The notes beneath the pieces are model-generated. The model saw only the letters and a program-made list of their open reading frames with translations, was not told the DNA's origin and did no database searches. Source: Thelephora terrestris (Eukaryota > Basidiomycota > Agaricomycetes > Thelephorales > Thelephoraceae). Taken from it: a stretch of DNA of 64,000 bases. The stretch lies in assembly GCA_015956445.1 (NCBI GenBank), contig WIUZ02000008.1, positions 1 to 64,000 of the forward strand, written 5' to 3'. Within the stretch, counting starts at the first letter, position 1. The number at the start of each line of letters is the position of its first letter. Below, in pieces: positions 1 through 31,000 of the stretch. A program made the translations under genes and the position numbers.

Positions 1-60
1 AGGCTGCGAAACACTAACACTCAGCTTCTCCCGTAGTTTGCAGCGCACCCAACATCCGCA
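1..60. repeat. End of an R-repeat copy cut by the window edge
   Basis: The first bases (ggctgcgaa ... cagcttct) match the end of other R copies near 4385 and 39604. An R copy therefore runs in from the left of the window and abuts the acetyl-CoA synthetase fragment. Confidence 0.5.
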
Positions 61-1145: not shown

Positions 1146-1159
1146 TTAACCTCGCATGT

Positions 1160-5950: not shown

Positions 5951-6990
5951 AGAGAGGGGAGTTCAGATGGACTCCGAGGGAGAGTGCGCTGGTCGATCGA
6001 TCGATTCCGTTGTCACCGGTCCGAATATAGGCTATGGGACAGCAACTTGTCATCCTTTTCTTCCTTCGTTCCATGATGCTTCATCGTAAACTCACGGAGG
6101 GAGCTCATGGACACACACGACTTCATGTTTTTCTTTCTGGCGATGAGAGTTTCGCGAGTGCTTCACTGCGAAGCGCGGAGGGTTGGCGGCACTGGTAAAT
6201 CGAATTTCTTTCGATTGCACTCGCCGCACTGGGTGAGAGCAAGAGATTGTTTGCTCAACCAGGGTAGGCTGGAATTCAGCCTCGAAAGCCTGACCAACTT
6301 GTCCTGTGCCCTCGTTGGGGCCGATCTCGCTCCTTGCTATGCTTCGCCCTCGGCGATGGACTTTCGGTACACCGAGGAAATCTCGCGATCCCATATCGTC
6401 GCTGGTTCGGTGTAGATGATGGGATGGCAACAGGAGACGGACACCTGGGACTCGTACCATTTTACGCACCTCAAGCCACCAAACACTAAGCGTGTGGAAT
6501 ACCCGTCTGCAGATGGGCAGATTCCTTTAAATCTCATCCCTGACCAGTGAGAAACCACCCTTCTCTGGTTTCCTTGCATTGAATTATCCGCACTCAACGC
6601 TGACGCCTTGCAGGACACTCCGGTTTCGCCTCCCGAGGGTCGTCAGGTGTATATATCCTTCATCGACTCACAGATGCAACGGCACTCCTCCCAATGTCGA
6701 TGGCCATATGGCCATCGTAAGCGAACGGGTGCAAAGACCGAAGACCTCTAGACGCATCCCAAAGCTGGTCATCGTGCGGTACCTCCTCACGCCATCGCGC
6801 TCCTCGAAAAGGGCAGAACGCGATACGCTAGACACCCCTGAGGGTTCAGGTCTTTCGTAGCCGTCTCCTTGGGCTTCCTCTTACACGGATTTTTGTCATA
6901 CCGCACCCCTTGTAGGATGCGGCTGCTCTAGAAGCAGCCATCGCGGGCATTCCACAGGTAGCCATCGCGGATCGATGTCCCCCAAGTAAA
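5950..6990 (+). pseudogene. Upstream part of a G-domain GTPase unit, decayed
   Basis: The piece VGGTGKSNFF (6182-6212) looks like a Walker A loop and is followed at 6275-6300 by SLESLTN, resembling the LESCT motif after the P-loop in fungal G-domain proteins. A GRQVYISFID-like block near 6645 could be the G3 strand. Equivalent sequence lies at 1150-1740, 33115-33760 and 41700-42480. Frames are broken. It may be a second, more diverged GTPase copy sitting upstream of the better one at 7000-8215. Confidence 0.4.
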
Positions 6991-6999
6991 CGCGGCATC

Positions 7000-8215
7000 G
7001 GGGTCCCATGTTTTCTCCATACATCGCCCCCCCCGATCACGTCTCCGGTACCCTCAACTTTCTTCGCCTCCACCGAATCCAGGAAATTCGCCGATTTTTC
7101 TTATCCGACGGAGTGATGGTGCAACGAGAAACGGGCAAGCCATTCGTGCGTACTCGTTTTTTTTCTGAATCGACGGTGGATCGCAAATGGACCTCATCAC
7201 ACGTCTGTCAGGTGGACCCTCAAGGAGATGGAAATCGACCCCAACTGAGACATTGAGCGCACCGCAAGAAGAAACAGATAAGGGGCCAGGAGAACGTACT
7301 GGCAAGAAGTGAAAGGCTCCTCGTGCGGAGAAGAGCTTAGATGTTTTCTTCGTGCTTAGTGTTGGCACGCAATGCAATGGATGCCTCGAGAGGACACAGC
7401 CGGTCGTCGTGTGGTTTTGATCGATACTCTCGGGTTCGACGACACCTCACTCAGCGATGTAGACGTCCTCAATATGATCGCGGCCTTCCTCAAACTCGTA
7501 GGTGAGGCTCAAACCCAGCCCCCTGTGAATGAAAATGACTGAACCTTTCTCACGCACGGTGTATCGCGTCTCAAATATAATGCTTTTGTTTGCAGATACG
7601 AGGGGGGAAGCTTGCCGGGGTCCTTTATGTCCACCGGATCTCCGATCCCAAGATGACTGGAATATCGAGGAGGAACTTTGGGATGTTCCGGAGGCTCTGT
7701 GGCGACAATGCTTTTCAGAACGTCGTCATCGTCACCAACATGTGGGGGAAAGTGGACGTCGAGGTCGGCAAGGAACGTGAGGCCGAGTTGAAGAGGGAGG
7801 ATGACTTCTTCAAGCCGGTTCTCGACAAGGGCGCTCGGATGGAACGTCACGAGAATACCGCTCTCTCGGCGGAAAGGATCGTTCGCCTCAACCTTCGGTA
7901 ATAACCCCTTGCCGCTGCACATCCAGAAGGAACTTGTCGATGAAGGAAGGCAAGGCCATCCCCGACACTGCCGCTGGCGAGGAGCTGACCAAGGAGCTCA
8001 ACGCCCAAATCGAGAGACATCGAGAGGAAATGCGGGCGCTCGGGAAGGATTCGGGGCAGGCGATAAAGAAGAAGGACGAGGAGACCCACGAGATTAGGGA
8101 CACGCTCCGAAAGGAGAAAGCTCGAGGAAACAGACAGGCTAGGATCCCCAACCGTCTCCGTGAAGGATTTGTCTCCAGAATCGCAGCATACCTCGATGGC
8201 GTCGACTTGTAGGAC
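7000..8215 (+). pseudogene. Fungal G-domain P-loop GTPase, best-preserved copy
   Basis: This copy keeps the family pattern most clearly. A decayed Walker A lies at 7110-7140 (ancestrally GATGxGKS-like by comparison with the copies at 1885 and 33930). The exon at 7390-7500 reads GRRVVLIDTLGFDDTSLSD, the G3 region. An intron-like gap follows to the acceptor ttgcag ending at 7595. The next exon (7596-7900) has GVLYVHRISDPKMTG, MFRRLCGDNAF and VVIVTNMWG (G4-like). The last exon after about 7930 is charged and coiled-coil-like (TKELNAQIERHREEMRALG) and runs to a stop at 8210. The Walker A lesion and the frame changes around 7140-7390 make it a probable pseudogene. R copy 3 follows directly. Confidence 0.7.
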
Positions 8216-9820
8216 TCTTTTTTCTTTCATTTCTTTGACGGTGAGCTTCGTATGTGGTGCTCTTGTAAACCGGTCGGAAACTCGCACGAAATTCCCACTA
8301 TATATCTTATCGAAAATCTGATTCCGTGTGGACAGAGCAACAGCATATGATAGCACACGCTGTGGAAAATCCCGCGCCTTGAATTCATTGCGATGTGGCA
8401 AAATTTGGGCAAAATCACAGATAAAGTCAGTGTGGGGCATTGGTTTCAGTCGCTTACTTTTTGAAAGGTGACATAAATCGCCTTGATCCCAGTCGTTACA
8501 GTCTTTACAGCGATACGAGGCCTTCCCTTGCGTTCGGTGGCCAGCCTCAATACTGGATCTAGAAATGAGTACTTGAGTACTTGAGTCCCCAAGCAGTTGA
8601 ACCCTCCTCATGACGCGGTGCAACTCAGGGTAAATCCTCCAAGATCGACCATCGCCGGGAGTTCCAGTGCGAGTCCGGACGTGCAACCAACCGACGAAGG
8701 AAGCAATCGAGTTGTTTCGGATGGCATCTAATTACGAGACATACTATTAAATTATACTCAAAACAACTCCAAAGTTGTGTCCATGCGCTCGGGTCAAAAA
8801 CAGTACGTCTTCGGACTCCGCAGAGAAAGGTTCATAAACGCAGCCAAGGGTCTAGGTAAAGTTGATCAACCTTAGGTACCGGAGAATGGTATCTTCGAAC
8901 TCGAGCGATGTCGTACGGCCTAATAGAAACGAGAATGCCCACAAATCGGTAAGCACGTGCTAGCCGCACGTCGTTTCAATCTTGACGTTCGTTCGTATTT
9001 CACCTCTTGTTGGCGAGGGCCTGAGCGTATGACCTCTGCGGGGGAGTCGTGGAAGGGGGAGAAGCGCTGGAATCAGAATCATTCCGAGCCATTCGAGGGA
9101 GCTTCAAGTCCCGATCCAACTCGTAATCGAGGGCGTCGTGGGTGTAGGCGGACTCGAGGTCTTCCCAGTCCTCTTCGCTGGAGACGCTTAATTATCGGAA
9201 GTCACGGCATCCTAGCTGAAGTTAGACGTGATCTCGAACTCGTGGTGGAAAGATTGCTCTCCAGGTTCGGATGGCGGGACGGGGAATATTCGAGGGACGG
9301 ATAGGAGAACTTCGTAACCACGAGCCTTCCTGTAAGAAGAGACTCTGATAAGCACCCCACGGATGAAGAAACGGACGCTTGATCATCACGTACGTTGCTT
9401 AGGCTTGTGAACCTTCATTGGGAAGTCGGCGAGATAGATATCAAATGGCCGTGGCCGTGTATCCTTCTGCTCAATGCTCTTGACCGTCATAGACCGCGCA
9501 GCCGTCGACAACTGGGTCGACGTCGGGAGGCCCAAGTCAGTCTGGCCGGGGCTGGTGTGCGAAACACCAGTGTAGGTCAAACCGCCGTTCCCCCTTGGGT
9601 TTCGATGGCGCCGACTGGAGTGAGTAGCCAAGACCGACCACTTTTGCTGGAAGCGATGAATGAGGGCATTCTGAACGCGGCAGACGGTTCCTTGGCGGAA
9701 CGCAAGCGTGTCGCGTTGAAGCAGTTCTTGATGAGGCCGACCGCCTGGTCTTCTCCGATACGAGACTTCTGCGCGCAAAACTGTTTGGGTGTCAAACTGT
9801 GCTTCTTGGAGTGTGTGGAC
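8215..9820. repeat. R repeat copy 3, truncated by the hAT element
   Basis: Matches 4400-5950 and 39940-41640 along its length. It stops at ggagtgtgtggac (9807-9820), where other copies continue with ttga. The hAT terminus begins at 9821. Confidence 0.6.
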
Positions 9821-10011: not shown

Positions 10012-13000
10012 TCACATGTTCGCCCACTCCTCCTTGGTTGGTTCACGGTCACTCGTTTCTGTGCGCGCAGCGACTACAGGGGCCATGAAGCCCTCAAAGT
10101 TTAGTCCTGGCCGTTCGTCCGAAAGTATGCTGCAAAGAAAGGGTGATGCGAGATCAATATCACCATCGAACTCAATTTCTTCATCTTTATCAGCAAGAGT
10201 TTCGCTCCCATCCCGATCACTGCCCTCCTCTTCACTCAGCACTTCAGCGGAGTCATCAGCTTGCTGTCTTGCCTTTGTGTAGATCTCCTCCTCGATGTCA
10301 TAGAAAGCAACAACTGGCTTCGTCAGGGGCTTGGCCTTCTTATTTTGCTTATTCCAAAAGAGCATTATCAAGGCTGCTCTCCGCGCGCATGGGACTAGAT
10401 TCTCACCAAGTGAAGGGCCCACTGACGGATTTGTATCATCCACGTGAGTGTCGCAACGTTCTGTCGATTCCGCAAGCTGGAGTTGAACCACGTGAAGTTT
10501 GACACCGTCCGTTCGTCCGCCATCGAATTGACAGAGGCTGAATATATGCGAATTGCAAGAAACTGGCAGCTGATCAGTCCAAGCCATCAGAGTTCGCGTG
10601 AGCAACGAACCGCTAAAATGTTCGCATTGCTTGATGACGAGAGCGCCCGCCACCATGAGAGAGTATCAGAACTCGGAGTGGAGTTGAAGGGGGCATCCCG
10701 CCGCGCATATAGCTTGAACTGACGAGCGAGCTCTCTGAGAGCAGCCAGTGACCCGATGTTCACTATGAACTCATCCCTGGCAATCCATAGCTTTTGCAAT
10801 AGGTTCTTCAAGAATTCCTTTGCACGTTTTGCAGCTGCGGGATACGGCACTTCATTGGGACCAGAGAATTGAGCAGGCACGGTGATGGTTGGACGCATCG
10901 TAGTTGGTCGTTTGAGTACTTCGGAGTGGCTGTAGCCTATCCCACTGAGTCAGCAGAGTTTCTCATACTTGTTGAGACTTACGGGGATCGAGGAAGAAGG
11001 CAGTAAAGTATATGTCCGTGGGGGAATTATCAATGAATTCCTTGTAACGCCTATTCACAATTGCGGTTACTTTCTCTGCTAGCTCTTTGTCAATATCTTG
11101 ATCGCGTCGAAATATGTTTCGAAGAGACGCAGCGATTGCAAGCCAGAAGATGTATACATCTGCGGCATTTGCGGTTCGTCCCTCGAGCGCCTTGATGGAA
11201 CGCGCTATTGGTGCCATGACAGCAATGTAGGTTGCAAGTTCGGTCGTGTATGTTGTACTTGCTTTTGAATGCGGCCGTGTAAAAAGGCCGTCGTCCAACC
11301 CCTGAGGTTGAAACATTAGTGACTACACAATGTGAAGCTTTGTAGGGATATTACCTTGATAGTTGCGGAACCGTCTTTTACGAGCAAAGAAATGCATGAC
11401 ATATTACGCACAACGGAGAGTGATGACCAGTATTGTGTTGCAAATCTTGTTTTCCCGACTTTTTCAAGACCACGTGCCACTCCAACCTCACGTCGCAGCT
11501 CAGCCAGCTTGCTTGCGTTGTGCGTTGAGTGAGAGAAGTAACTGATAACCTTTTTTGTGGTCGAAAGGGCCTAAAATGCAATCATCTGATCAACGAACGC
11601 AAAATATTGAAAGATCGGGTACTGTGACCACTATCGTACCTTCTGGAACTCCGGAAGCCTCGAAATGTCTTTGGCCGTATTGGCAAGGTGATGACACACA
11701 TCAGCGAGATTCATTACTGTCAGAAACTTTTCGGTAATATTCCTCCGAGCCTTCTTAGTGTTGCCAGTGTTATCAGAACAGATCGCAGTGAAGCGATGGG
11801 TCCCGATTGAGTTTATCACCTGTGGATTTTCAATCCTGTGCAGGGTCGCTGAAAGTTGGGACTAGGTTTATCACATACCCTGGTAACCAGCCCCTCAATG
11901 TACTCTGCTGTATGACGTTCGTCGGTCGCATCACGGCCTTCTACAAAGAATGTCTCCCTATCTGCAGTGGTGATGTGTATGGTGTACACAGAGGATGGCT
12001 TCCGTGTGGATCCACCATCGAATGTTAACGTGAGGTTGGTGCAGGTCCGGAGAAAGTCTGTCTGATATTTGCGGACGAGTGCGGCTTGTGCCGGGATCAA
12101 TTTTTCTGTCAACATCGTTGATGAAGGAGGGTTGCATTTTGAGTGCGTCGCCACATCCACAAATTCCTTCCATTGTGGTGAGTCTAAAACACTTGCTGGG
12201 ATTCCACTGACGGAAAATAGCTCGACTATTGCAAGATAAACTTTGTCTTGGTATTTGATTTTTCCTGTGGTGACTGCGATGTCCGCAAGTGAGCTCTGGA
12301 TAGTTTTTGCTTTCTTGTGCGTAGCTTCCTCGTTTTCTACATCAGCCAGAATCAACTTTGGATTAACCTTTACCCCAGGTGCATTTTGATTGATAGCTGT
12401 GTCGTTTGCAAGATCTTTCAGCTCAGGTGGGAGATGTGGGCACTCCATTGCATGCAAGAGTATCCGCGATTGTTGACGATTCCCAGCGCGGAAGTGGTTG
12501 CACGCTGTCGAGTTTGCTAGGGTTGTAGTGAAGAGGTCTATAAGAACTCTTACTAGTCCTTCTTGGTTTACTTAGAAGCTAAGCGTTAACAACTAAGTAG
12601 GCTGGTTGAGAAGTCAGTTATCCCGACTATCAACTCCACAGGGTGGGCGGGGTTTCGTACTTTCCGGCTCCTTGTCCTGATGAGTTCGCTGAAGGAGGTT
12701 GTAGGTCCTTCAGATGTGTTCAGAGGGGTTCAGTAACCTTTATCACTACTGCACGTATATTCCCTGGTCCAAACACCTAGTAAGAATGTAAAGGGGGTTG
12801 CTGATCTTGATAAGAATGGAGTTCCTGATCTACGCTGATGATCGGGAATGGAGATAATGATGTGTGAAACTGATACAATCGAGGCTGTGTATGAGGCTGT
12901 GAAGAAGGCTGTGTAGAATGCTGTGCACTGTGGCTGTGTAAGTGGCTGTGCTGTGGCTGTGTTAAGGGGGTGGCTGTGCTAATACTTCTGAGGCTGTGCT

Positions 13001-16000
13001 GATATGTCTGAGTGGTTTTGATGATCTGTCAATATACTGCTGAGGTGCGTCCAAATGCTGCTGAGATACGTCTGATAACTTGATACTGCTGAAACTTGAG
13101 AACCTGTCTTGATAAGATAAACTTCTTGATATGTCTGAGATACTGATATGTCGGATACCAATGTGGTACTATTACTAAATCTGTCTGTCACCTAGTCAGT
13201 CACTAGTCTGAGGTAGAATACTCTCTGCCTGAAGGGTCTGCCTTCAGCACTAACAGAGATAAGGATATTGCTACGTCACAGAGTCAAGTGTACTAAGCTT
13301 ATTCAGAAGTCCAAACTTAGAACTTATTCACACAGAGGTGGGGCTCAAAATGGTATGTGATTACTGAAAATCACTCAACCACTCAGGCCTAAGGAGGTGA
13401 GGCAAAGTAGGGGTCTTGGTGAAAAGGGGTAGAGTAAAAGAGGGTGGGTTATAGAGAGAAGAGGGGATAGAGGGGGGCAACTACTGGCCAGTGGCCAACA
13501 GCTGTTGGGTAGAGAGAGAGAGGGGTAAAAGGTTATGGGTGAGTTGCCTTTCCTTAGAACTGGGGGTGAGTTCTTTATATACTTTTTCATGTGAGATTAT
13601 TCTAGAACGTTCTATGGCCTTCTACTGTATTCTATGGTAATTAATGGAGTGACAGACGTCACAAGCGTGACAAAATGTCACAAAAGCGTGACTGGTGTCA
13701 CATGGGGTGTGACGTTCCGTCACCTTCTAGAACATTCCGGCAAGTTCCAGGATGTTCCGGCGCATTCCAGGGTGTTCCTGAACATTCTGTAACATTCTGT
13801 AACTTTCCATGAGTTTCTTGTCCTTATCTAATCTTATCTTATCTGATAAGACTGTTATCTAATCTAATTTAATCTTGCTGTGGTGAATTATCATAAATAA
13901 TGACATGGTTGTTCTCATGTCCGACATCCGCGGGGAACTTTTAAACGATCGTCCCTGATCGCAATCATCCCAACTAGTCTAGAACAATAGTGACTTATTT
14001 ATGATAATGCACATAAGGTAGCTGCAATACCTTGAACAGCATAGTCTTGAGAAAAGTCAAATCCTATGTCTTGGAGGAGATATTCGATGTGCCGTACAAA
14101 TGACTCGTCGGTTTGCCCTACCATAAGGCATATAGACCAGGGGGCGCAGCGATGATGAATGAGGAATATTCGGTTATTGTTGTTTCCTAACTGATCGACC
14201 ATTGTCCGTAAGCGGGTGCGTTCGCTTTCGTTACAATATAGGTAGCAGAAAAGTTCGAGAGGGGTTGTCCAGTAAGTATCCAATCCTTGTGGATTTACGT
14301 GGTAGTGGATGATTTGCATGTGAAGGAGAGGTAGGGTGTGATAGTGAGATGGTTTTGCCGTTGAAGGTGATGTGCTGGCAGACTCGGTTTGTAACTACGT
14401 CAACTCCTTTTTTTGGGTTGTGTGTGTGTGGGTCCAGTCGAGTTGAGACGCCGATTCTTGTGTTATGACAATTTCGTGGGTCCGTCTTTCATTATTTAGG
14501 TAGACGTTTTCCCACGATGTCATATGCATGGTGGGTTAGGTGAGGCGAAGTACATGTGTGTAATTTCTAACCAGCGCGGACTCGTTGTTCAGTGGCTAGC
14601 CTATTATTAATTAATTCTATGAACTCGTCGTCGCTGAGGTAAGTATTGAGGCATAATGGTGGGTTAAGGAGGGGGTGGACAATGTAGGTAGTGTCCCATC
14701 CTGTGAGCAGGACGTCTTCAGATATTCTTCGGAGGAGGCGTCTGGCGCTCTGGTTTTGCTGGAGGTATTCGAGGACGTCTTTGGGGGTTGCCCAGTTTAA
14801 TCCCATGTAGTCGACTACAAGGATTTCTTCGTAGAAATAGGGGTGGTGGTGTACCTTCCAGGGCGTTTCCCAGGAAAGGCTGAGCGCGCGTCAAAAATCT
14901 TGATAAAAAAATACGTAAGAAAATGAGCGTACGTGCTTTTCCATTGGCGGGTGCAGGGGTCTAAAATAAAGCAGTGTTGCGTGTCCATGAGGGTACACCG
15001 TAGAGTAAGCAGTGTTCTGGGGGGGGATAAGAACTAGGGGAAGGGAGAAAGAGAAAGGAAAGCGAGAGGAACACGCTGGTGAAGCAATGTGAATGACAAA
15101 TATTAAACGTGGGGAAGAAGGAAGCCATATACGTAATAAGTAATGATCCGGTGCCGAAAAGAAGGAGGCACCAGGGTCTCGATCGAAACGTTGTGATATA
15201 CTAAAATAAAGTTTGATGGCTTGGTGAACTGGAGAAGGGTGTCATCATCGGAAGTCCCATGATGAGATGATGAAATGTATGAATGATGAAAAGTCCGTTT
15301 ATTCCTTGGTTGAACGAACGAAGGGGAAGGGAATAATGGGGCGTCGTAAACATAGGGGTGGCAAGGTAGGGAATACCGTACATAGGGTAATTAAACGTTC
15401 CCAGAGTACTTGTCTGCTACCCTCTTTAAAGTATCCAGCCGTATAGTAACCTTGCGTAATATACTTTCCTCGCTGTCATGGGGGCCAAGGACTAGGGGTA
15501 CCTCGAAAAGGGGGTGGACGATGTACATTACTCCTGCTCCTTGATACATGTAAGTCCAAGCTTGACGTGAGATCAGTTTTCGGGCGCTCTTCTTGGTCTT
15601 TAAGTATTCCAGGGCTTCGACGTCAGTCTTCCAGCCCTGTCCCATGTAATCGATGAGAGGTATGGTGTCATATCGGTGGTACTCGTCTGAGCTTGGTGGG
15701 GTAGGGTTGATACTGGGGCCGATTTGAGGTCAGAGTGTTAAAATGTTGTGCATAGCGTAGAGCTTACGCTAGTTCCCATTGATGTGTTTTGGGATCTTGA
15801 ACGTAGTAAACCAATTTTACTCCCATGATTTCCGATGTGTAGGTTTTCTGGGTGCGCTGAGTTGGAATATGAAAGGCGGCCACAAAGACGAAAGTTGTGA
15901 GAGGTTGTTTCGTTGTGACGTGGCATTCGTGGTTGGCCGATATATTGAGTCATCATGATGACAACTCATCGTTCCTCCATTTTAATTTGATCGTTCTTTT

Positions 16001-19000
16001 GATGGCGTTAACATGGTGGGATATACGCATAGATTTAATGGGGGAGCAGTTTTGTATCTAGATAGAGGAGGGTTACCGACTATACATCTAGATGTATGAC
16101 CACGGGTCAAGTATAGACAGCTGGTATTCGAATAGTTCCTCTATATAGTCTTCGGACGTATTGGGGTAGATTGTGATAGGATAATGGAGGAGATGGTGTC
16201 TAAAATAAACGATGGCCTCCGTGTTGCCTTGCTCTTGTCGGACAGCCTGGAGTAGGGCGAGGCGGGCGTCCTTATTCTCGTAATAGTGTTTGAGGAGTTC
16301 CTTTTCCGTTTGGAAGTCGGCTTTGGTGGGAAAAGCAAGGATTGATTGGGAACGACGGAGGGTCTTGGTGGACATGGTAGGAAAAAACTTGAAGTGGGGG
16401 AAGGAGGGTTTGTTTGTCTGTTGAAACGACGGAGGTTGAATGAGGGAGTAATGACTGGAATGTTTGGTAACGTACCAATGGAATTGTAGCTTTTAATATA
16501 CGCGAGAGTGCCAACACGACTATGTGTTGACGAGAGTTGGTGAAGGTGAAAGGAGAGGAGGTGAACTGGAGTTTTGAGTTCGCCGTCCGGAGCTCTATGT
16601 TGCGGTCTGAGCGCTCCGTGTTTTTGATAAGGTTCGGTGATCGGGCGGTGATTACTCCATTTAGATTAGACTGAATGTCATAACTTTTGACATAATTCCA
16701 TGCGTTTCTTTTGATGGTGTTCTTCTGTTGGGCATACGTTGGCCTATCTTCATGTGTTTGGTGGAGGGAATTTCGTGTAAGGTGTTTGCATTGAGCATAG
16801 GGTAACGAATCTTGGAGAAGGAGGGAAAAGTGATTCTAATGAGCAGATGAATCCGAATCAGAGTCTTGGGTTGCTTCCTGGTTACTGTCATCTGATGGTT
16901 CCTGGGAGATATCACTGTCGTTTCCGTTATCTTCCATAATCCGATCTGCCCATTGGTCTAGGTTTTGTCTTTGTACATAAGGGATCAATCTATAGGCAGC
17001 TACGTGGTCCAATAGTTCACTGCCATCCATTTCTTCAAGGACGTATGATCCTCCTTGGGTTTGTCTCCCAATGCGGTATGGTCCCATGTATCTGTCGGCT
17101 GTCTTCCTTTCGATAGACACACTATTCTCAATCCGATTGTTGCGTACTAGGACCAAGTCATCTGACTGATACGACTTTTTCCTTATTCGTCTAGCGAACT
17201 TCTTCTCATAAGCCTTCTTTGATTGGAATCTAGACTTTTTAAGAATTCTGCGTGCTCTAGCCATGTCTTCTGGGAGTCTTAAGAGCTGACGTGCTCTGGC
17301 TTGTACTAGTTCATCTCTGGTCATTCCTGGTTTGAAGTCTGTTACTAGAAACGTGGCATCAGTGAGGTCTCCTGGTAACAAGGGATGGACTCCGTGTAAC
17401 AAGTAGTATGGGCTATATCCTGTCGCTTTTCGAACCGTGATTCGATCAGCATAGTTAGCTGCTTGAACAAAGAGAGGCCATTTGGATAGGTCTCCTTTGC
17501 ATAACTTTACTAGGGCTTCACGGATGTTATAGTGTCCACGTTCTACTGCTCCATTGGCTTGGGAGTTATAGGGAGAAATTTTGATGTGACGGATTCCATA
17601 CTTCTGGAGAAGATCAGAGAATTCCTTCCCAAATGAGGGTCCATTGTCTGTTACTACTTCCTGAACTATCCCATAACGGAGGATAATCTTCTTGAGGAAA
17701 AAGCGAGCCATGACTTTGGCCTTATCTCTTGCTATAGCTTTGCATTCTGTGACTCCGGAAAGGTCATCCCTACAACTGATGAGCCATCGTTTTCCTTTTG
17801 CGTGAGGCATGCTCATAACGTCCACATGTACTTTACTGAACAGGCTGGGGGGGTGGGAAATTGTGACTGGGATGTGCATCTTCTTGGTACTTCTGATTTG
17901 ACAGGTGTGACAACTGCGTACGTGTTCCTTGATCTGATCTTTCATACCAGGCCAGTAATATCGTAGGGTAAGGTGTTGCTCCACTGCCCAGACTCCGTGA
18001 TGGGCTATGTCTTCATGAGCTTCCCATAGAATTTCCTTCTGTCGTTCTGCTGAGAAGATTACTACTTGAGGAGGTTTTCCTGGACGTTGCTTGTACATAT
18101 GGGCCCCTTTCAGGTAGAAAGGTCTGGCTTTGCTGAGGAACAACTTCTTTTGCTTGGTTGTTCTGAACTTGGGCGTTTCCTTGGTGACTAGGTACCTGAG
18201 AATGTTGTCAAGGTCCTGGTTGGAGTATTGATGGGTGGTGGCAACTGCATACGAGTATTTCATATTGTCGTCTAGGAAGGTGTTATCACCTAAGTTGGGG
18301 AGGGGAAGGGTGTGAGCTGGGGAAAAGGAGGGTATAGGGGTTATGAAGGAGGGTCTTGATGTTTGAGGAGGGTTGTGGACTTCACTTGCTAGTACCAAAC
18401 TGTCGATCCATTCTTCTGCATCTGATTCAGGGTCGTCATCTTCTTCATCTGTGGCATGTCTTCTTCTAGATAAAGCGTCTGGTCCCTTGTGTCTGTGAGC
18501 TGGAACATGTACTAGCTTGAAGGTAAACTGCTGGATTCCATTTATCCATCGGTTCAATACCGCTGGCAGGGTGTCTGGGTGTGCTAACATTCCTCGTATA
18601 CTTGAAGCGTCAACTTCCACAATCAAATTCTTGACACCAGATATATGGGCTCTATATCTGTGGAGGGCACGGAATAATCCATAGAGTTCTAACTTTGACT
18701 GTCCATACTTTAGACTATATCCTGTTAAAGGAATAGATCCATATCTGGCTGGAGCACGTCGTCCGTTTTCATCTTCCTGGGAAAGTATCATTCCAATTCC
18801 GTATTCGCTGGTGTCTACAGATAATATGATTGGCTTGTCACTGGTATAGTCAATTGATCGTAGCGCTGGGGCCTTGGATACTTCTTTCTTGAGACAATCA
18901 AAAGCTTCTTGCTGTTCTGGTCCCCAAGTGAAATCTACTCCTTTTCGGGACAGATGTACCAAAGGTTTGGCAATTAGGCTGAAATTTTCTATCCAAATCC

Positions 19001-22000
19001 GGACAGTTCCACATAGACCAAGGAATCCTCTAACCTCCTTTAGGTTAATAGGTACTGGCCAGGATTCAATTTTCTTGGTACGGTTGTCTACTGGTTGACG
19101 TCCCTTGGCACTGCACTTGTGTCCAACAATTTCTACTTCGGCTTGGCAAAGCTGCATCTTCTTGGCTGAAATGGTTCCACCTGCTTCTCCTATCCTATGA
19201 AGGATTCTGTTAACGTCATTAAGGTGTTCCCATATATATCGTCTGATTCCTGGGTTCTCTGGGATGGTTTCTTCCTTACCATCAGGTCCTTGGTACTTGG
19301 TTGGTGGTCCTTTGATTGGAATGTCGTCAATGAATACACCTGCTTTGTCTGGAATTTCGTCTTGTAGAATGAACATCATACAAGCTTGGAATTCCGCCGG
19401 AGCATTGACATATCCCATGGGTAATGAGGTTAATCTGAAAGATCCTAAAGGGGTGTGGAAAGCGGTCAAGTCTCTACTGTGGACATCCAATACTCTTGCA
19501 TGGAAACCCCAATACATGTCTAGGACAGTATAAACACTTCGTCCGGCATAGGCTTCCACGAATTCTTCTATAATAGGAGGAACTGCTGAATCTCTGATGG
19601 TTATTCCATTAAGGCGTTGGAGGTCATGAACAAGACGTAAACTGCCATCCTTCTTCAGAACTGAAAACCATCTGGATCTGTAGACTGTGTGAGCTCTTTC
19701 ATACACTCCAGCCTTAACCTTTTCCTTGAGAAGGCTAATAATCTGGTCATATTTGCTTTGGGCTAGAGGAATGTTCTTCTCAATCCAGGGTTCATGTTCA
19801 ATAGTCGGAATTACGTAGTCTGAGAAATAGTCATTACGGAAGGTTCCTCTTTCACTTTCATCAAAAGCAATGCTTCTTTCGTTTAGGCAGAGGACCTGTT
19901 GTAGTAGCTTCCGTTCCTCAGGCCACAATTCATCGTGCTTGTCTATGGCTAGTTCATCCATTCGTTCAGCGGTGATCTTGGTGGTAGGGATAAAGTTTGA
20001 GGGATGATGAGGTAGGATAGGGAGGTTTTGTAAGGGATTACCTGGGATTTGTCGTTGAGGTTTTTGGTGTTCTGGGATCTGTATGGCCACTGGTCGGACT
20101 TTCTGGCTGACCTTCTTGTATTTGAAGACAGCGCAGGGTTTTTGATGATAGTCGGAGGGTGGATCGGATTCCAGGTCAGAATCATCTTCTTGAGTTAGTA
20201 GGTCAGGTAAACTATCTTCAAAGTCTGGGTCGGAGTCATTTTCACCAGAACTCGTGTCCTGGGCTAATTGCGATGGGAGGTCGGAGGGACTATTTGTTGA
20301 AGGGAGAATTGGTGGAGAAGATATAGGTTTGACCCATACCTTCTTTCTGGGAAGTACTGGTTTTGCGAACTTGTGGGTCATGGTGACTCTAATAATTTTT
20401 TCTATAAAATCACCTGTACCAACAGGTACCCACAATGAACGGAAAAAAAAAGAAAGAGAAGAAAAAAAAAGATATAAAGCGCAGGGGGGGGAGGGAAAAA
20501 TAAAGGGCGGGTGGGAGGGATGTAGTCTAATTTAATTGAGGGAGAGAGCGAGCGAATTTAAACAGAAATTGAGGAAATGGCGCGTTGATCGGAGGGTGTA
20601 GCAGTCGTGGGAAAAAAAATTGAGGGAAGAATATGCCAGGGAAGAGGCGGAAAAATCGAGATTGAGAAAAAATGGGGAGGAACAAGAACGAGGCCGCGGG
20701 GAACTTTTTGGAGTGAAGTTACCCTTAGATAAGATTAACTGTAGGAAGAAAAATAAAATACCAGATAGCGTGCACCCGCGGGGAACTTTTCGAAGTCAAA
20801 GTTCACCGGTTCCGAAAGTCTTTCAGAGGAGAAAACTTACCGGTAAGTTGATGGGTCGCACACTGATCAGTCGAGGGTAGAGGGAACTAGGCTAAATTTC
20901 TTCGAGTGATGCGCAGGTAGATAGCGGTGATAGTATCAAACTAAATAAAAAGTCCGGCGGGGACGCTTGAGACCGTACGCAAAGAAAAACTAGTAAGTAG
21001 GGGAGGGGCGGGCGTAAAAATAAATCAGGACACGAGGCGGGGAGACACGAGTGTATCGATCAACGGAGGCGGGGTAGAGTCCGGGAAAATTTAAACAAAA
21101 ATACGACGCGCGGGGTATGTAGACGGCGGGGCGGCGGTCAAGCGACGGAAGGAGAAAAGGAAGTGGGAGTGGGGAAGTAGGTGGGAAGGAAAAATAAAGT
21201 TGGGAGGGAAGTGAACGCTCGAGGTATATGGAAAGAGTGGGCGGCGTATACGGGCGGTGAGAAGATAAGGTGGGGTCGATGGAAGGAAGAGGGCGGAGGA
21301 GACGGTCTTGAGGCGCGAGTTCGCAGAACTCGGCTGGTCGAGAGAGAGGAAGGAGGTCTTGAGAGGCAACGAGTCTTGACGTCGCGGAGGTTAGTGAGTC
21401 CGGGGAAAGGGGAGAGGCTCGCTGCTTGTCAGGACGAGGCTAGGAGGAAAGTAATAGACGTCAGAATATACGCGAGAGGCAATTTGAAACGGGGTGAGGG
21501 ACGAGAGAGAGAAAGGGAGAGGGTATAGAAAACAGGCAAGATCTACTCAGCAGAAACCCGTTGTCCCTCCAAATTTTTGCTAGACTTCAAGATGTTGGGG
21601 AGACCTGGGACTGAGAGGGTGCCGATTTGTGCGAAGAGGTGAGATTTGAGAGGGAGGGGAGAGAAAGGCAAGGGGAGTAGGCAAAGACGAGAGAGAGGAA
21701 AAGGAGAGAGGGATTGGTGCTGCTGGAGGCGGCCGTTCGGCGTGAAAATGGTTGGAAATTGTAGGTTGGGGTCGGCGGATTGAGAAAAGAGAGTTTTGAG
21801 GGAGGCAGGGGTAAAGGCGGAGGTGTCGAAGGTCGAGAGGCAAGGTGTGTTTGAGGCGTGACGCGGTCGACGCGAGGAGTGTACCGGGAGTAAACGAGCG
21901 AACGGGAGACCACGCGGAGGGTGGCAAACGTCGTAGAGTTGGACGGCCAGTCGGTTCGCCAGGTTCCGAAGGGGAAAGAGAGAGATGGTAGAAGGCAGGA

Positions 22001-25000
22001 AGGAGAAAGGTGAGGGATGTGGGGAGCGGAGTGAAAGACTTTTCGCTTACCAGCGGAAGACGGGTTCAGGAACCGGAGTTCGGATCAAAGGTTTGACCGA
22101 ATCCGATCCGGGTGACTGAGATTAGAATAGACAAGTGTTTTGATGGCGCGCGCGATAATGAAAACGTCAGAGATGGGGCTGGGAGATTACGAGTTCGTTC
22201 TTACTTTAGAAAACACCGACCGATTTATTGTTAACATAGGAAGGGTGGTTTGCATGGGTGGCGTAGCTTGCGTTCGAGTTGGCGGCGTTGTCCGGGTAAA
22301 GAAGGTGAAGGGCGACTTGATAGAGTTGCTGGTAACGAGTGGTGAGGGCGGTAATTTCGAGGCCGTGTTGCTTGAGTTGGTGTTCGACGCTGGGTCCGAT
22401 GGCGAACTTGAGGGACGCGATCTCCGACATTAGGACACTGTTCATGTCGCCTTGAGCCTTGCGCTGATCCTCAACGGTTTTGGCGAGCTTCTTGACTTCG
22501 AATTCTAGCGCCAGAACTTGATCGAGCTTATCTTTGACAGATCTCAATTCGACGCGCAGGGTCTCGACTTTGACTTCGAGCGCTTTGATCTGATCTGTCA
22601 ATTGTGACAGCTGCTTCCGTACCTCGTTTGCTCTTTCGTTTGAGTTCGCAGTTACGGACCGGGTCTCATAGCGGTGGTTTGCCCTCGGATTGTTCTTCCA
22701 GGACCTTTTCTTATCGGCTCGGACTCTGTTCTCCTGCTTCTTCAACTCGTTCGACCTCCAGTTGAGTTCGGTGAGTAAACATCCGTCTGTGTATACCTGA
22801 TTTTCGAGCTCCCTCAACCGGGTCGTTAAGTCGCTTGTCGTTCCCTCGATCCGTTCTTCGAGTACCACGATCTGCTGTTTGACGTCTTCAAGGTCTTCAA
22901 ATCCGGGTCCTGGCGCGGGCGTGATTTGCTGAACCTTCGGTACGTTAGACGTAATCTCGGCAAGATGATTACCCAGAGTTTTCGAGAGTACTTCGGGTGA
23001 TTCTTCCTTGATCAGGGGGTCGGACGTGGCCGGTTTCAGGGCTTCTTCACGGCGCTTTGCTTCAAGGTAAGTTGCGATGTGTTCCCTTCGGTTGAACAAA
23101 ACTTTCCCTATTTCTCCTCCCCAGTATTCGCGTTTTTGCTGAACTCCCTCCAGGTTGTCCTTCGTCATTTCGTATGTCAACTGGAGGAGTCCGAGTTCAC
23201 CGAGGCATTCGAGGACTTCACGGCGATTCTTCCGGCTCTGGAGGCGTTCGAGGTATGGTGCTAAAAAACTTAGATTTGCTTGAATTCGTTCCAGAGCCTG
23301 CTCGTTTTCTACGGGTGACGAGGGCGGTTCCTCGGGCGGGGAATCAAAGGTAGCAGGGTACAATCTTGACCACGCCTTGAGTTCTGCTTGGTGATCCTTG
23401 GCGTCCGGCAGTTTCTCGTGATCTTCGGAGAGTTCGTCGGTTTCGATGTCGTCCGGGTAGTATAGCATTGGTGGAGAATCTGGGGCGAGATCCATAGAGG
23501 GATCTAGAACTGCAATAGGTGGGTTTCCGGGTTCTTCGATATCGACCTGCGGATTCAATGTACTCATATGTCGGTTTTCTGGATTTTTAGACATGTCACT
23601 TGCCTGGATTATTCCGGCCGCAAACGACCTTGCTACGTGGACATCCGAGGTGGTCTTTTCGTTCTGATTGGGCAAAGGTGGCTCGGGCTCTCCCAAAGCT
23701 AAGTCATTTTTCGTTATCTCGCGATTTTGGGATATACCAGTTGATCGCTTACTCAATTTCCCCAGATCGGGAGCTTCTTTGATGGACTTCTTTGTGGGGT
23801 CGACACTTCCTTCGACGTCTCGTAACTTGTCTAGGACGCTGTCCACGGTCATCGGTTCGTCGGCTTTGTCCTCGACTGGTACGCTCGGGAACCTGTACGG
23901 CGGCGCTGAATCAGGTAAGATAACATTGTGGGTAACGGACTGATCGTGAAAGGGGGTATTGCGGGGAACTGCTAAGTTTTCTTGGGGCTCCGGTCCGGCT
24001 GGCGCATTTGACGCGAAGACTTGGACATGCGCGTTAGCTACGCGGGACGTTGGCGGTGGCCTCGGCGGTTCATTGAGGTTGGCCGAGCTTGAGGCGTAAA
24101 GGCGGACATAGGCTTGTCCCTGGCGTACGTATTGGGAGGGGCCTTCGCCTCCTAGTAGCGTTGCGCCGAACGCGAAGAACGAGTGATCTCCGGGGGGTAA
24201 CATACTCTCTTCTAACTGGACGAGGTGGGCCGCCGCTAACAGTCCGGGAACTTGGTTTTCTGGAGATGGGATTTCGACGTCCATTACTTCTTCCATTGGC
24301 TGGTCGCCTTGCCCTGGTAAGTCGTGGTTCAGACTTGGTCGGACTAGGCTGACTACCCTTCGAGGGTCGTTTCGGGACTGCTGTTGAGGATTGTTAGCTG
24401 CAGGACACTTCCTACAACCACAACAACACTCACCATTCGAGGTGGGCTCCGTCTTGGCTGAATCTTGGGGTTGATCTTTGAGTTTTGGTGATATTTTGTC
24501 CAAGGTGCGTTCGACCTCTTTTATACCTTCTGGTGCTCCCAATAATTTTATTTCCTTGGTGGTCCTATCCCTTTCTAGGTGTACAAAGGTTTCTACAGGG
24601 TCTCCACCGGTTGTGCATGTTTCCGAGCCCTTTTTCCGTCCCATGTGGGCCTCAGACTCAGACGCGTGATCGGAAGTCTGTGGGTCACTTCCTAATTTGG
24701 TAAGTGTTTCTTCTTCTGCTTTCTTCGTTTCCTCGTCGGTGTCACTGACTTCTTATCCTCCTTTCCTTGGTTAGATTTCTCTGGATCCTGGGTTGAGGGC
24801 TTGTTACCTCCATTCTTCGCAGGTAGCCCGCGTCGGACTTCGATTGTTCCGTCATCCAATTTACTAATTGTGTAAGTTCTTATTTCTTCATTCGCGACCA
24901 TCGGGTCCCTACTCAATTCATCTAGCACTCCTTCCAGCTCATCCTGCTCCATTACATTCCACATTACTTCGTTGTCCTCGGGTGTTTTGCCCTTGAATTC

Positions 25001-28000
25001 TGAGCCGAAGACCCTTATCCGCTTTTTCGGTACTGCAGGTTCCGACGGTTCCGGTACGTATGTTTGCTCTATGTTGTTGTTGTCTGGATCGTAATTAAAC
25101 GCATCCGGATATTCGCGCAGAATGTCCAATCCGGCTTCCCGCGGGTCTTGTCGGTATTGTTCCCCATACACGGCATGGTTACCTCCGGGTGATGATTGAC
25201 TACCGGTTCCGACCGTTGCGTCATTCGGTGCCTGGCGCCTTTTTGACTTCTTGTTTTCGTCTTCGGTTCCTGTTCGGTGAGGTTCCCTTTCTTCCGTTAT
25301 TCCTTGCACTGCCTTTGCATTTTCCGGGATGGCCGTGCCGTCTTCTGGATCCCATACGGTCCATTCGTGATTGTTGTTGGGGTCATTGCTCTCTGCCGAT
25401 AGGTTTCCTTTCGAGGTAAGTCTCGATATGTTAGGCCTGTATCTTTCGCGATCGGGTAACCACTGTTCTTCATTCTCGTCTTCTTCGTCCGTGCTCAACT
25501 CCTCAAGTCTATTCGGCCTGGATCCTGGGTCGTCTGACCCATTCCATTCTTCGTGAATTGTTTCAAGTTTCCCGTACCGCGTGGTAAGTCCCGATATGTT
25601 TTCTTCATGTTTTCCGTGATCGGTTAACCTTGATTCCACAGAACTTTCTTCTTCGTCAACGCTGGGTCCCTCGAGGTTATTCGGACTGGATCCTGGGTCG
25701 TTTGACCCATCTCTTTCCATTCCCATCGGTCTCCATACGTTTCTTGTGTCAGTAAGTTCGGATATGTCGTTTTTGTGTTTTCCGTGATCGGTAATTTTTT
25801 GTTGATTAGACCTTTCATCGTCTTCTTCGTCTGGCCCACCAGAGCTATTTGGGCTGGATTCCAGGTCGTCTGACCCATCCATGTCCATTCTTCTCAGTTC
25901 TGGAGGTTTTTCCATGTCGGTAAGTGCGGATCTATTGAATTCGGTCTCCCACTCGTTTACCCACTCATTGTCTGTGCTATCTAGGTCTGCATTCTGGTTC
26001 CCTAGTACTGCTTCCGTTGCAAACACGCAGGCTTCTACGGCCACTGATCGTTCACGGCCTCCGGTTCTCCTTTGTTCCCGGTGCTCCCTTCGTTCGCACG
26101 ATTGCATGTACCTTCGGAATTCGTCTCCTTGGGCCTTCTCGGTAAGTCGTCTCGTACGCCGTGTTCGCGTTACCTTGGCGATGGTGGACTGATTTTCTTC
26201 CTGTAGGTTCCATTTTCGTTTCCGGGAGGTTGGTAGGGTTGAGGGCGGATCCGGTTCAGGGGTAGCGAGAGTTTGAGAGGGTTGAGGGTTTTCCGGGTGG
26301 GGTGGCGTAGATACTTCGGTTTCGTATGGGTCAGGGTCGTTCGTTGCGGCCCTATCTTCATTCTTTAAGTCTTCGCTACATAGCCTTGTCCACGGCTTCT
26401 GGTCGCGCATGGCTTTCTTTCGTTCGAGTTCACACAATGCATTCCATTCTTCGTCGGAAGCTCCTTTCCGGACCATTTTAATATATGTTTCGTACAGGTC
26501 CGAACTAATGGTATTTTCGTTCGACTGTTTATTTATATCTTCGTCCGAATATTCTTCCGTCCCCTTTTCCGCGCGTGTTTCCTCCAGCTTCCGTAGATCT
26601 TCTTCCGTCCCGATCCGTCCGATTTCATCATCTGTCTCGCTTCTTCTGTCGTCTTCATCAAGCACTAGCGCTTCGCGTCGTTGCGCGGGCGTCGGTGGGT
26701 CTTCTCTCGCGATCGTTACTGGTGAGTAAATAAAATCATTTTCTCTTTCCTCCAGGGCTTCCGTTTCGACGCCGGCCATATTACTTCCGATCACGAGGCT
26801 TCCTTCTTCTTCCTCGCTGTCCGGTACCTCGCCTTCTTCAATTTCTTTATTTCCTCCTATTGCGTATACTCTTGCCTGGTAATCCTGTGGTTGATACCTA
26901 TAATTTTGTTGTTTTCTTCATTGTCCCGAGATCCATATGTAGAGGGAAGGGGTCTGATTTTTCGCCAACCTTTATTGGTAATAATTCTCAAATGAGAATT
27001 CCTACCATCTTCTATCCAAGTGGCTTTATGGTCTACACCCCATTCTCTTCCAAGCAGTAGCTGAAATCCTGCATTCTTTTTTACGTAGAGATTTCCGGGT
27101 GCCATAACTCTTCCTTTTGTAGTCTTCATTGTCATCTCTGCACAAGGTATCATTCCTGCACATTGGGAGAGATTTCCGTCAACTGACATCATCGGAATCC
27201 TGTGTTCCTCGGCGTTGGACCAAGGTATGCCTGCTGCTTCTATTAACCTTTGATTAACAATGTTGAGTTGGGATCCACTGTCAAAGACTCCAGTCATCAT
27301 AGTCCCTGCCACATTGACTGGTATCTTGATCAATCCATCCCTGGGCACTGTTACCGTAGGCTCCACAAGGTCTGTTTCATCTTCTTGATCATAGTCTTCT
27401 TCATCTTCTGATTGTTCCTGGACTACAGCTTGAAATGGTTGCTGTTCTTCCTTTTCAATCACCTCGGCGAGGAGGCCAATTTTCTGCTGCGTTGGGACAG
27501 AGACCTCATGCCCTTGTTTCATTGCGCTCACAAGGCCTCGTCGCAAAGAAGGCGCAGCATCGATTGCTTCCTGTACAGTTAGGGTAATGTTGGTGTTTAG
27601 TATTTTAGTGGCAATTGCTGAACTGTCTGGCTTCTTGGTAGTCCTGGGATTAGTGACTTTGGGACCATTGGTTTGCTCCAAATGCGCCGAGTCCTTCCTA
27701 TTGTAGTTAGTAGGCTTTGCAGTGACCTCCTGGTCAACCTCCATTGGAAGCAACTGGTTGTCCGTTTTACCTTTAATTACGCCCTTGTTGGGGTTAGAGG
27801 CAGACCGGATGTTCCCCGTCTGGTTGCTGTTAAGATTGACGTGATTCTTGATTGGGTGCTGTGGCCTACCAGGACTCTTTGCTTCCCTGCTCCTGGGGAG
27901 CTTCTCCATCCCTTGGGGTCGGCTAGGTAAGACTTGCTGTACCTTCTTTCTGTGTTCCTTGCTGATTTGGGTGGTCCTTTCAACACCAAAAGCTTGACAG

Positions 28001-31000
28001 TGTTCTACCTCCCCAGAGGTCCATCCTAATTCCGCTTCTTGTTCATCAGTATCAGCATCGTCTTCATACCTATCCACTCCTATGTAGTTACACGCAGTTT
28101 CCAAAGTAGGGTTGTATGGCAAGGCTTCAGCATAATGGACTTCAGCTGCAACATGTTTAGTAATAGCTTGTATCCATGTCTCATTAGGTGCTCGGTAGAT
28201 TCTTGAGTTGTCAGGCCACTGTAACCGTCCTGACGTTGGGTCCTTTACTATCTTCCCAGCTTTTACCAATTTGTTTATTTCCTCACATGCCCTAATGTGG
28301 TGACCTTGCTGTCCACAACCAAAACAGGTGTAGTTCTGTCCGATTGCGTTGGGGCCTGTTGCCATAGAGAAACTTTGAGGAGGGGGTTGAGACATTCTCT
28401 GGGGTGATGGATTGAAAGGTGGTCGATAGGAGGGATTTGGTCCTTGTCGTGACTGGGGGTTGGTGAATTGTTGGTTGCCAAAGTTCTGATGAGGTGGTAG
28501 ATCCCTCTGGAATGGTCTTCTAGGTTGATTTGGTCTTGCTGAGTTTCGGTTAGGAGGAGGTTCTACGTAATTCTGGAGATGTGGGTACTGCTGAGCAAAG
28601 TGTACATATTTGACCCAGTACTTGGGGTCATCAATCTTGAGGTTACTCAGGTCATCCACTAGCTGGTTGAAGTCTTCATCCTGCTTTCCTTTGTGCTTCT
28701 TGGTCTTTGTGGGTAACTTAGGAGGAGATTTAGGTGGAGTCAGGGGTGACTTGTGTTGGATAAGAGGCTTTGGTTCATCATCTGATTCGTCTTCTGAGTT
28801 ATATCCTGAGAGCTTAAATGGCTTAGTGGATTCCTCTTGGTCTGACTCTTCTTCTTCAGAGGACTGGTATCCGCCTTTGGTTGCCAGGTGCTGATCAAAC
28901 CTATAAGGGTTAAGGACTGAATCAGCTCCTTCTACTATGTCTGCAATGCTGAATGGCACTGTCACATCTAAGTGAGGTGTAACCATTCTCATCTGGGCTT
29001 CAACTTGTCGCCTGAAGGAGGCATTCAAACCTTCCCAGAAATATCTGTTGACATCTCTAGTGGAGATCTTCCTCATTTCTCTGGCACGTCCTACCAACTG
29101 ATGGAATTTGATTTGATATTTCTTGAATCTGTCAAGGGTGTCCATTCGACGTTTTCTCCATTTGGTAGTGAAGGCTTCAATTTTTCCCACATTCAGGGAT
29201 CCTTGCTTGTCCCCAAAGAAGTAATCGAGCTCAACCAATAGAGTTCCATAGTCCCTTTTGGCATGGGAAGGCCAAGTTCGCAGCAGGTTAGCGATTCCAG
29301 GGCTACAGTATCGAATGAGTCCTTGATACTTTTCCTTTGATGAGGTGACGTCATAGCGGTTGCATAGGTGGTTATAATTCTCCAAGAAGGGCTCCAAGGT
29401 ATTGGCAGCTCCTGTGAAGGTTTCTGGTGCACGTGATTTGTTGGGGGCTGGTAATTCCAAGTAGGAATTTGATTGAGTAAGGAGGTCTTCAACTCCATTG
29501 AAGGGATGTTGTTCGTTTTCTGTATCTGAGATATAAGTCATGTTGGTTGATGTAGAGGAGATGGAGGGAGATGAAGGTGTGATGGTGGGAATGGTGTTTG
29601 TGGTGATAAGATGGTGTTTTATTGAAGCCCCTCGCCGTGGGCTCCAGATGTCGAGTTTGCTAGGGTTGTAGTGAAGAGGTCTATAAGAACTCTTACTAGT
29701 CCTTCTTGGTTTACTTAGAAGCTAAGCGTTAACAACTAAGTAGGCTGGTTGAGAAGTCAGTTATCCCGACTATCAACTCCACAGGGTGGGCGGGGTTTCG
29801 TACTTTCCGGCTCCTTGTCCTGATGAGTTCGCTGAAGGAGGTTGTAGGTCCTTCAGATGTGTTCAGAGGGGTTCAGTAACCTTTATCACTACTGCACGTA
29901 TATTCCCTGGTCCAAACACCTAGTAAGAATGTAAAGGGGGTTGCTGATCTTGATAAGAATGGAGTTCCTGATCTACGCTGATGATCGGGAATGGAGATAA
30001 TGATGTGTGAAACTGATACAATCGAGGCTGTGTATGAGGCTGTGAAGAAGGCTGTGTAGAATGCTGTGCACTGTGGCTGTGTAAGTGGCTGTGCTGTGGC
30101 TGTGTTAAGGGGGTGGCTGTGCTAATACTTCTGAGGCTGTGCTGATATGTCTGAGTGGTTTTGATGATCTGTCAATATACTGCTGAGGTGCGTCCAAATG
30201 CTGCTGAGATACGTCTGATAACTTGATACTGCTGAAACTTGAGAACCTGTCTTGATAAGATAAACTTCTTGATATGTCTGAGATACTGATATGTCGGATA
30301 CCAATGTGGTACTATTACTAAATCTGTCTGTCACCTAGTCAGTCACTAGTCTGAGGTAGAATACTCTCTGCCTGAAGGGTCTGCCTTCAGCACTAACAGA
30401 GATAAGGATATTGCTACGTCACAGAGTCAAGTGTACTAAGCTTATTCAGAAGTCCAAACTTAGAACTTATTCACACAGAGGTGGGGCTCAAAATGGTATG
30501 TGATTACTGAAAATCACTCAACCACTCAGGCCTAAGGAGGTGAGGCAAAGTAGGGGTCTTGGTGAAAAGGGGTAGAGTAAAAGAGGGTGGGTTATAGAGA
30601 GAAGAGGGGATAGAGGGGGGCAACTACTGGCCAGTGGCCAACAGCTGTTGGGTAGAGAGAGAGAGGGGTAAAAGGTTATGGGTGAGTTGCCTTTCCTTAG
30701 AACTGGGGGTGAGTTCTTTATATACTTTTTCATGTGAGATTATTCTAGAACGTTCTATGGCCTTCTACTGTATTCTATGGTAATTAATGGAGTGACAGAC
30801 GTCACAAGCGTGACAAAATGTCACAAAAGCGTGACTGGTGTCACATGGGGTGTGACGTTCCGTCACCTTCTAGAACATTCCGGCAAGTTCCAGGATGTTC
30901 CGGCGCATTCCAGGGTGTTCCTGAACATTCTGTAACATTCTGTAACTTTCCATGAGTTTCTTGTCCTTATCTAATCTTATCTTATCTGATAAGACTGTTA

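Follow-up and report, generated by a model that had tools for sequence, protein, structure and literature searches.

Paralogous small genes between integrase and the 3' long terminal repeat in a clade of large Ty3-type retrotransposons of Thelephora terrestris

The DNA stretch analysed here (the window) comprises positions 1 to 64,000 of contig WIUZ02000008.1 of the basidiomycete Thelephora terrestris (assembly GCA_015956445.1). Its minus strand carries, at 12506–31069, an 18.6-kb Ty3-type long terminal repeat (LTR) retrotransposon that hosts four small genes, g1–g4 (Table 1). The element has identical LTRs with TG..CA ends, a target-site duplication and the reverse transcriptase (RT), RNase H and integrase order of the Ty3 type, and its open reading frames (ORFs) follow one another as Gag-protease, ORF2, ORF3, RT-RNase H-integrase and then the four small ORFs. 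An initial annotation had described the latter as a row of mutually related, diverged ORFs, each starting with ATG, between integrase and the 3' LTR. All four are open where it had placed them, and they are kept open in an element whose two LTRs match at 1421 of 1421 positions.

Table 1. Positions in the window of the four small genes and of the other features of the host element
Feature	Position	Strand	Basis or remark
g1	16088..16375	-	One exon, 95 amino acids (aa); open ORF, homology, dN/dS
g2 exon 1 (59 nt)	15768..15826	-	Alignment and splice pattern; overlooked in the initial annotation
g2 intron	15713..15767	-	GT..AG, phase 2
g2 exon 2	15391..15712	-	Full g2 protein 126 aa
g3 exon 1 (56 nt)	14933..14988	-	Alignment and splice pattern; overlooked in the initial annotation
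g3 intron	14880..14932	-	GT..AG, phase 2
g3 exon 2	14567..14879	-	Full g3 protein 122 aa
g4	13999..14319	-	One exon, 106 aa; stop 72 bp ahead of the 3' LTR
RT-RNase H-integrase ORF	16836..20435	-	Pfam RVT_1, RT_RNaseH, Integrase_H2C2 and rve over cut-off
ORF3	22206..24644	-	Pfam matches weak (coiled-coil type), none over cut-off
ORF2	24692..26794	-	Without Pfam match; shares one frame with part of Gag and with ORF3 in copy L052
Gag-protease ORF	26857..29541	-	Zinc knuckle and aspartyl protease, both below Pfam cut-off
3' LTR	12506..13926	-	1421/1421 identical to 29649-31069; TG..CA ends
5' LTR	29649..31069	-	LTR identity and TG..CA ends
Target-site duplication ACGC, left copy	12502..12505	.	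4-bp repeat
Target-site duplication ACGC, right copy	31070..31073	.	4-bp repeat

The proposed ATG starts hold for g1 and g4, which appear intronless, but not for g2 and g3, where the ATG is internal. In these two genes the frame upstream of that ATG is conserved between genes and between element groups (e.g. ..PLIDYMG.. and ..LVVDYMG..), and further upstream, beyond a phase-2 intron, lies a short exon 1 that brings an ATG of its own. This exon is 59 nt long in g2 and 56 nt in g3, as well as in a single g2/3-type gene of two related element groups (groups 2 and 3). With splice-site patterns taken from the alignment itself, and the test thus counting fitting copies rather than chance frequency, a GT..AG intron was found in 35 of 36 copies examined, and all 35 introns are of phase 2. 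The g3 intron ranges from 51 to 55 nt among copies, its length modulo three varying, and its removal keeps the frame in 14 of 14. Exon 1 of g2 is present in 13 of 14 copies (locus L045 gave none), all 13 in frame when spliced; g2 of L041 splices in frame but has a stop in exon 2. The g2/3-type gene likewise splices in frame in all eight fetched copies. Whole g2 and g3 proteins are predicted, as far as can be shown from sequence, to require intron removal. That the four ORFs are exons of a single gene was considered and rejected, because every ORF has its own stop and g2 and g3 have their own first exons. The g1–g4 proteins are small, with negative mean hydropathy; g1, g3 and g4 of the window are predicted to be acidic (isoelectric points, pI, of 5.3–5.7), g2 has a predicted pI of 7.9, and in groups 2 and 3 the g2/3-type protein comes out basic (10.2–10.5).

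The proposed mutual relationship of the four ORFs was upheld by profile searches. A single-sequence phmmer search with g3 against 1716 six-frame ORFs, drawn from the window element and twenty fetched loci, recovered g2 (E = 2.8e-12), g4 (8.4e-4) and g1 (0.0085). For leave-one-class-out profiles three classes were defined, namely, g1 with g1'; g2, g3 and the g2/3-type gene; and g4. Searched against a set of 5161 ORFs to which 20,644 shuffled decoys had been added, with E-values set for 5161 sequences, these profiles recovered the left-out window members g1 at 5.1e-7, g2 at 1.6e-6, g3 at 8.4e-11 and g4 at 6.1e-7, the best decoys in the three tests scoring 0.18, 0.065 and 0.45 and the best in finer tests 0.042. 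An additional ORF, L048_3244_3360 (1.4e-5), overlaps a g1-type remnant. A separate profile, likewise built without g4, recovered g4 of all 13 main copies of the window's element group (8.9e-8 to 0.0069) and of L045, and among its matches listed up to E = 10 there was none outside the family loci; it did not recover g4 of groups 2 and 3, and in the leave-one-class-out tests group-3 g4 was the weakest left-out member (E = 0.091, best decoy in the same test 0.45). Judged from these profiles, g1–g4 are one paralogous family, with a similarity far above chance. A tree of the family joins the g4 genes of the three element groups with a support of 100/99, g2 with g3 at 90/87 and g1 with g1' at 88/81; the g1' class alone is weakly supported (56/37), with long branches flagged. 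Since the g4 branch is common to all three groups, the split of g4 from the other genes predates the split of the element groups.

The genome (40.6 Mb, 60 contigs) contains 34 hits to PF04082, a fungal-specific transcription-factor domain, and 43 to PF20151, a marker of Agaricomycetes, in line with its fungal origin; a hydrophobin search gave 0 hits, which does not show absence. It was searched with six family proteins, and all matches at E ≤ 0.01 were assigned to 30 loci. Only the best candidates were scored, so that the family is present at at least 30 loci: 16 in group 1, to which the window element belongs, and 7 each in groups 2 and 3. Among these best-scored candidates no homologue was found outside these elements in this genome at E ≤ 0.01. 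Family regions were fetched for 16 of 16 loci of group 1, 6 of 7 of group 2 and 2 of 7 of group 3. Group 1 comprises 13 main copies, with the order g1 or g1', g2, g3, g4, and three decayed or rearranged ones (L046, L047 and L044/L045, the last with g3 preceding g1). By contrast, groups 2 and 3 carry three genes or fewer in the copies fetched, namely, g1 or g1', a single g2/3-type gene and g4; in group 2, L048 retains only a g1' remnant at the module site and L060 has a broken g2/3-type frame. The g2/g3 pair is confined to group 1. Four genes in a row, as initially described, are thus a feature of group 1 and not of groups 2 and 3, while the equivalents in related elements that the description called for were found in all three groups of this genome. 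A search with RT gave 21 matches of at least 84% identity, 20 of them adjoining family loci and the last a short fragment at a contig end (C45), and about 50 further matches, fragments included, at roughly 41–55%. Two other Ty3-type elements of the lower RT identity class in the same genome (L054 and L055) contain no family member, so that, as far as tested, the family appears to mark one clade of elements.

A decayed fifth family copy lies upstream of g1 in three elements (L037:1209-1502, L036:1162-1500 and L032:4680-5018); 43 residues of its C-terminal half align with g3 at 56% identity.

The ratio of nonsynonymous to synonymous substitution rates (dN/dS), estimated by NG86 for pairs with at least six differences, is 0.15–0.57 for g1, 0.16–0.18 for g2 (two pairs), 0.14–0.56 for g3 and 0.15–0.72 for g4 (the 0.72 pair has eight differences). 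For g1', taken only where computable and with dS saturated in several pairs, it is 0.17–0.38, and one pair with six differences gives 1.26. Across g1–g4 most values fall at 0.15–0.4, well below 1, which is one of the two outcomes, beside a shared fold, that the initial annotation had named as support for its claim. YN00, for the pairs where it was computable, gave mostly higher values for g1–g4, up to 0.84 (g1 of the window versus L035, 0.57 by NG86), and lower values for g1'. By these estimates all four genes are under purifying selection and are constrained less than RT. The small proteins outpace RT by a wide margin in sequence change: in a comparison of the window element with one group-3 element, RT is 85% identical (dN 0.095, dS saturated) and g4 39% identical (dN 0.54). 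Furthermore, five other group-1 copies have an RT 99–100% identical to that of the window and a g4 that is 67–99% identical. Steps in identity occur near g4 in most of nine copies compared, L033 being uniform at 96–100%, and the copy on contig C1 (L038), which lacks RT, combines a g4 100% identical to that of the window with a different g1. Such near-identical RT beside variable g4, together with the mixture in L038, points to recombination that swaps alleles in the 3' module.

Seven of the 13 main group-1 copies lack RT yet carry the module, in some cases damaged. When L038, L039, L041 and L043 are aligned with the window element, pol is skipped, and g1', g2, g3 and g4 are present, with g3 and g4 of the contig C5 copy (L040/L041) located in L040, past an insertion. 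L032, L036 and L037, of which the 5' part was fetched for L032 only (as L052), have no RT match at the expected place and keep g1–g4. The loss of RT has at least two different structures among these copies (L032/L052, L036, L037, L038/L051, L039, L040/L041 and L043). Damage to the module consists of the stop in g2 of the C5 copy, an insertion between g3 and g4 in L037 and, in L039, a change of frame towards the end of g4. The LTRs of the C1 copy (L038/L051) are identical at 1469 of 1469 positions, and no matching target-site repeat was found at their ends. L051 and L052, the RT-less copies with a fetched 5' part, keep long open Gag–ORF3 frames, and dN/dS of L052 versus the window is 0.26 for the Gag part, 0.24 for ORF2 and 0.34 for ORF3. 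Over all main group-1 copies, g3 and the family domain of g4 are open in 13 of 13, g1 or g1' in 12 and g2 fully in 10. Because RT and integrase, which can be supplied in trans, were lost while the module and, in the two copies with a fetched 5' part, the Gag–ORF3 frames stayed, this retention suggests a function used preferentially by the encoding RNA, best in cis. The initial suggestion that the genes matter to the element is thus supported both by selection and by the retention of the module in RT-less copies.

Known families offered little guidance. Neither g1–g4 nor 21 family members had a Pfam match over cut-off; NCBIfam gave none at E ≤ 0.1 for six proteins, and the best PHROGs match was at 0.044. 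Against PDB sequences there was no match for g4, two family profiles gave a best match of 0.78 and none, respectively, and spliced g2 reached 1.1 at best, while IMG/VR scans with g3 (the ORF as initially drawn) and g4 yielded no confirmed relative. The spliced g2 and g3 served in the Pfam search and the spliced g2 in the PDB search, the other searches including little or no exon 1. The conserved pattern, judged by eye, suggests the arrangement strand-helix-strand-strand-helix, which would fit an RNA recognition motif (RRM)-like or ferredoxin-like fold.

In the Gag-protease ORF, zf-CCHC_2 scores 18.9 bits where the cut-off is 27, and Asp_protease_2 scores 15.5 bits where it is 24.3, both below threshold. 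Unusually, two further ORFs, ORF2 and ORF3, stand between protease and RT. Gag-protease, ORF2 and ORF3 occupy three different frames in the window copy (22206-29541, minus strand). In L052, a single frame of 2397 residues covers part of Gag, ORF2 and ORF3, with the Gag start in another frame; for this reason the Gag–ORF3 polyprotein frame of the window copy looks disrupted (or misassembled), despite the identical LTRs. About 1.7 kb without a sense ORF of more than 115 aa separates ORF3 from pol (20532-22205, minus strand), and hence pol seems to need its own transcription start or splicing rather than a gag-pol frameshift. On the two flanks of the element lie long diverged repeats (48-9775 versus 32112-42453, about 65–87% identical), which suggests that it inserted into older repeated sequence. 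Elsewhere in the window, 44814-48521 contains an inverted match of about 2.7 kb (93% identical, arms overlapping), and related repeats with an offset of about 100 bp, 80–92% alike and partly inverted, occur at two places (57444-57989 and 61186-62262).

Collectively, the sequences show a conserved accessory module, made up of three or four small genes paralogous to one another, that one clade of large Ty3-type elements in this fungus carries between integrase and the 3' LTR. We tentatively propose as the best explanation, giving it somewhat less than even weight, that the proteins act in the element's own RNA cycle by handling its RNA. The introns are the strongest pointer: 35 of 36 copies have them, so that the template of reverse transcription would have been unspliced there, and intron-bearing copies would pass unspliced genomic RNA through reverse transcription while spliced mRNA is also made. 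The element would then have to balance spliced and unspliced RNA, because the introns are kept yet full g2 and g3 need splicing. The paralogues could be specialised or partner subunits that bind to Gag or to the RNA of the element and help the unspliced genome to be exported, translated or packaged, in the way that the CERV protein (see below) works for the Cer1 element. Rev acts in this way for lentiviruses, helping the unspliced genome RNA. Fast divergence and the exchange of g3 and g4 alleles could then reflect coevolution with the element's variable RNA or Gag, or with host factors.

Several observations weigh against this proposal. We infer the expression and splicing of g2 and g3 from their sequences, and conserved introns need only the chance escape of some genomic RNA from splicing. 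The acidic g1, g3 and g4 do not appear suited to simple RNA binding. Nor did the searches reveal a sequence link to RNA-binding proteins, the best hint being the match of g1 to Pfam RRM_PARP14_3 (PF23085; E = 0.0058, 17.1 bits versus a cut-off of 24), a domain that matches 2 of 21 family members at E ≤ 1, below cut-off; at E ≤ 1, Pfam gave nothing for the spliced forms of g2 and g3 or for the g2/3-type protein of group 2. RT-less copies may be too young for gene loss, some module members are damaged, and the low Gag–ORF3 dN/dS (0.24–0.34) may stem partly from the time before RT was lost.

Among the alternatives, chance ORFs or functionless relics are hardly credible. The stops in some copies, g2 being fully open in only 10 of 13, and three more group-1 loci that are decayed or rearranged would agree with such an origin, but it is contradicted by the leave-one-out homology, the dN/dS values, the frame-preserving introns and the open g3 in all 13 main copies. 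A more serious, though still unlikely, possibility is that, in line with the initial suggestion of an action against the host, the proteins are host antagonists that block fungal silencing (RNA interference, methylation or related surveillance), with an arms race driving change and allele exchange. It would account for the divergence of g4 relative to RT between the same two elements (39% versus 85% identity, dN 0.54 versus 0.095), the replacement of alleles among copies with nearly identical RT, the expansion of paralogues and the lack of homologues outside these elements in the genome at E ≤ 0.01. However, of the computable NG86 pairs a single one (1.26, six differences) does not fall below a dN/dS of 1, whole-gene dN/dS shows no sign of positive selection, and a copy that depends on others would be expected to manage without a diffusible suppressor of its own, whereas the RT-less copies keep the module. 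We consider it doubtful, to a similar degree, that both activities are joined in one accessory system of retrovirus-like layout, in which paralogous regulators, partly from genes with introns, with exchanged alleles and kept even where RT is gone, would jointly control unspliced RNA and also evade silencing.

The position of the genes recalls yet another role, namely, that of structural or transfer proteins, either minor particle parts or proteins that move particles between nuclei or cells. In other LTR elements the integrase-3' LTR interval is the site of env-like ORFs (PMC7264820, PMC10309623). Such a role is nevertheless improbable for proteins that are small and of negative mean hydropathy, and no env, membrane-protein or glycoprotein family appeared among the Pfam matches of 21 members at E ≤ 1. 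Interference or drive genes, which would either hold rival copies in check (copy-number control) or protect carriers as a poison-antidote set, would fit the coexistence of diverged g3 and g4 alleles in one genome and the decayed fifth copy in three elements. Yet the genes stay together in most copies and no separable poison-antidote pair is visible, so that we give this explanation a slim chance.

For the proposed role in RNA handling, the closest parallel is CERV of the Cer1 element of Caenorhabditis elegans, which has its main ORF between pol and the 3' LTR, is expressed from a spliced mRNA and is required for export of unspliced Cer1 genomic RNA (PMC10309623). CERV has no obvious homology outside nematodes (PMC10309623), and the fungal genes resemble it in position, in the predicted splicing of g2 and g3 beside an unspliced genome, in having no homologue found outside their elements in this genome at E ≤ 0.01 and in diverging fast. 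By its description, however, CERV is one protein of 517 aa whose first three exons are in the gag frame (PMC10309623), whereas the fungal set consists of three to four paralogues of 95–126 aa, each with its own start and, in g2 and g3, its own intron. Plant LTR elements also have additional sense or antisense ORFs between pol and the 3' LTR (PMC7264820), and Retand elements carry extra genes (TRP28) and occur as copies without some coding domains (PMC11963269), comparable to the RT-less copies described here; the Retand ORFs, however, are antisense and mostly of the TRP28 type, unlike the sense, paralogous fungal genes. Among fungi, an added gene is known from the Boty-like elements of Botrytis cinerea, and the title cited in PMC7264820 describes brtn as one antisense gene, which sets it apart. 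LTR elements of bdelloid rotifers have captured a third ORF, modular among elements (PMC5408684), but this ORF3 mostly encodes recognisable enzymes or env, in contrast to the several unrecognised paralogues of the fungal family. In the titles and abstract openings of the open-licence literature, no paralogous intron-bearing set was described for a fungal element, which agrees with the initial view of the family as undescribed.

Retroviruses have accessory paralogues, such as Vpr and Vpx or OrfA and OrfB of walleye dermal sarcoma virus. Compared by description, these resemble the fungal set as small accessory genes duplicated inside a retroelement, in other hosts. The usual view of LTR elements outside retroviruses is that of a gag-pol machine to which no more than one further gene is added. 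If the reading given here is true, complex accessory gene sets would have arisen outside retroviruses too, and these elements would offer a tractable fungal system for studying how an unspliced genome is balanced against its own spliced mRNAs, or how an element answers silencing.

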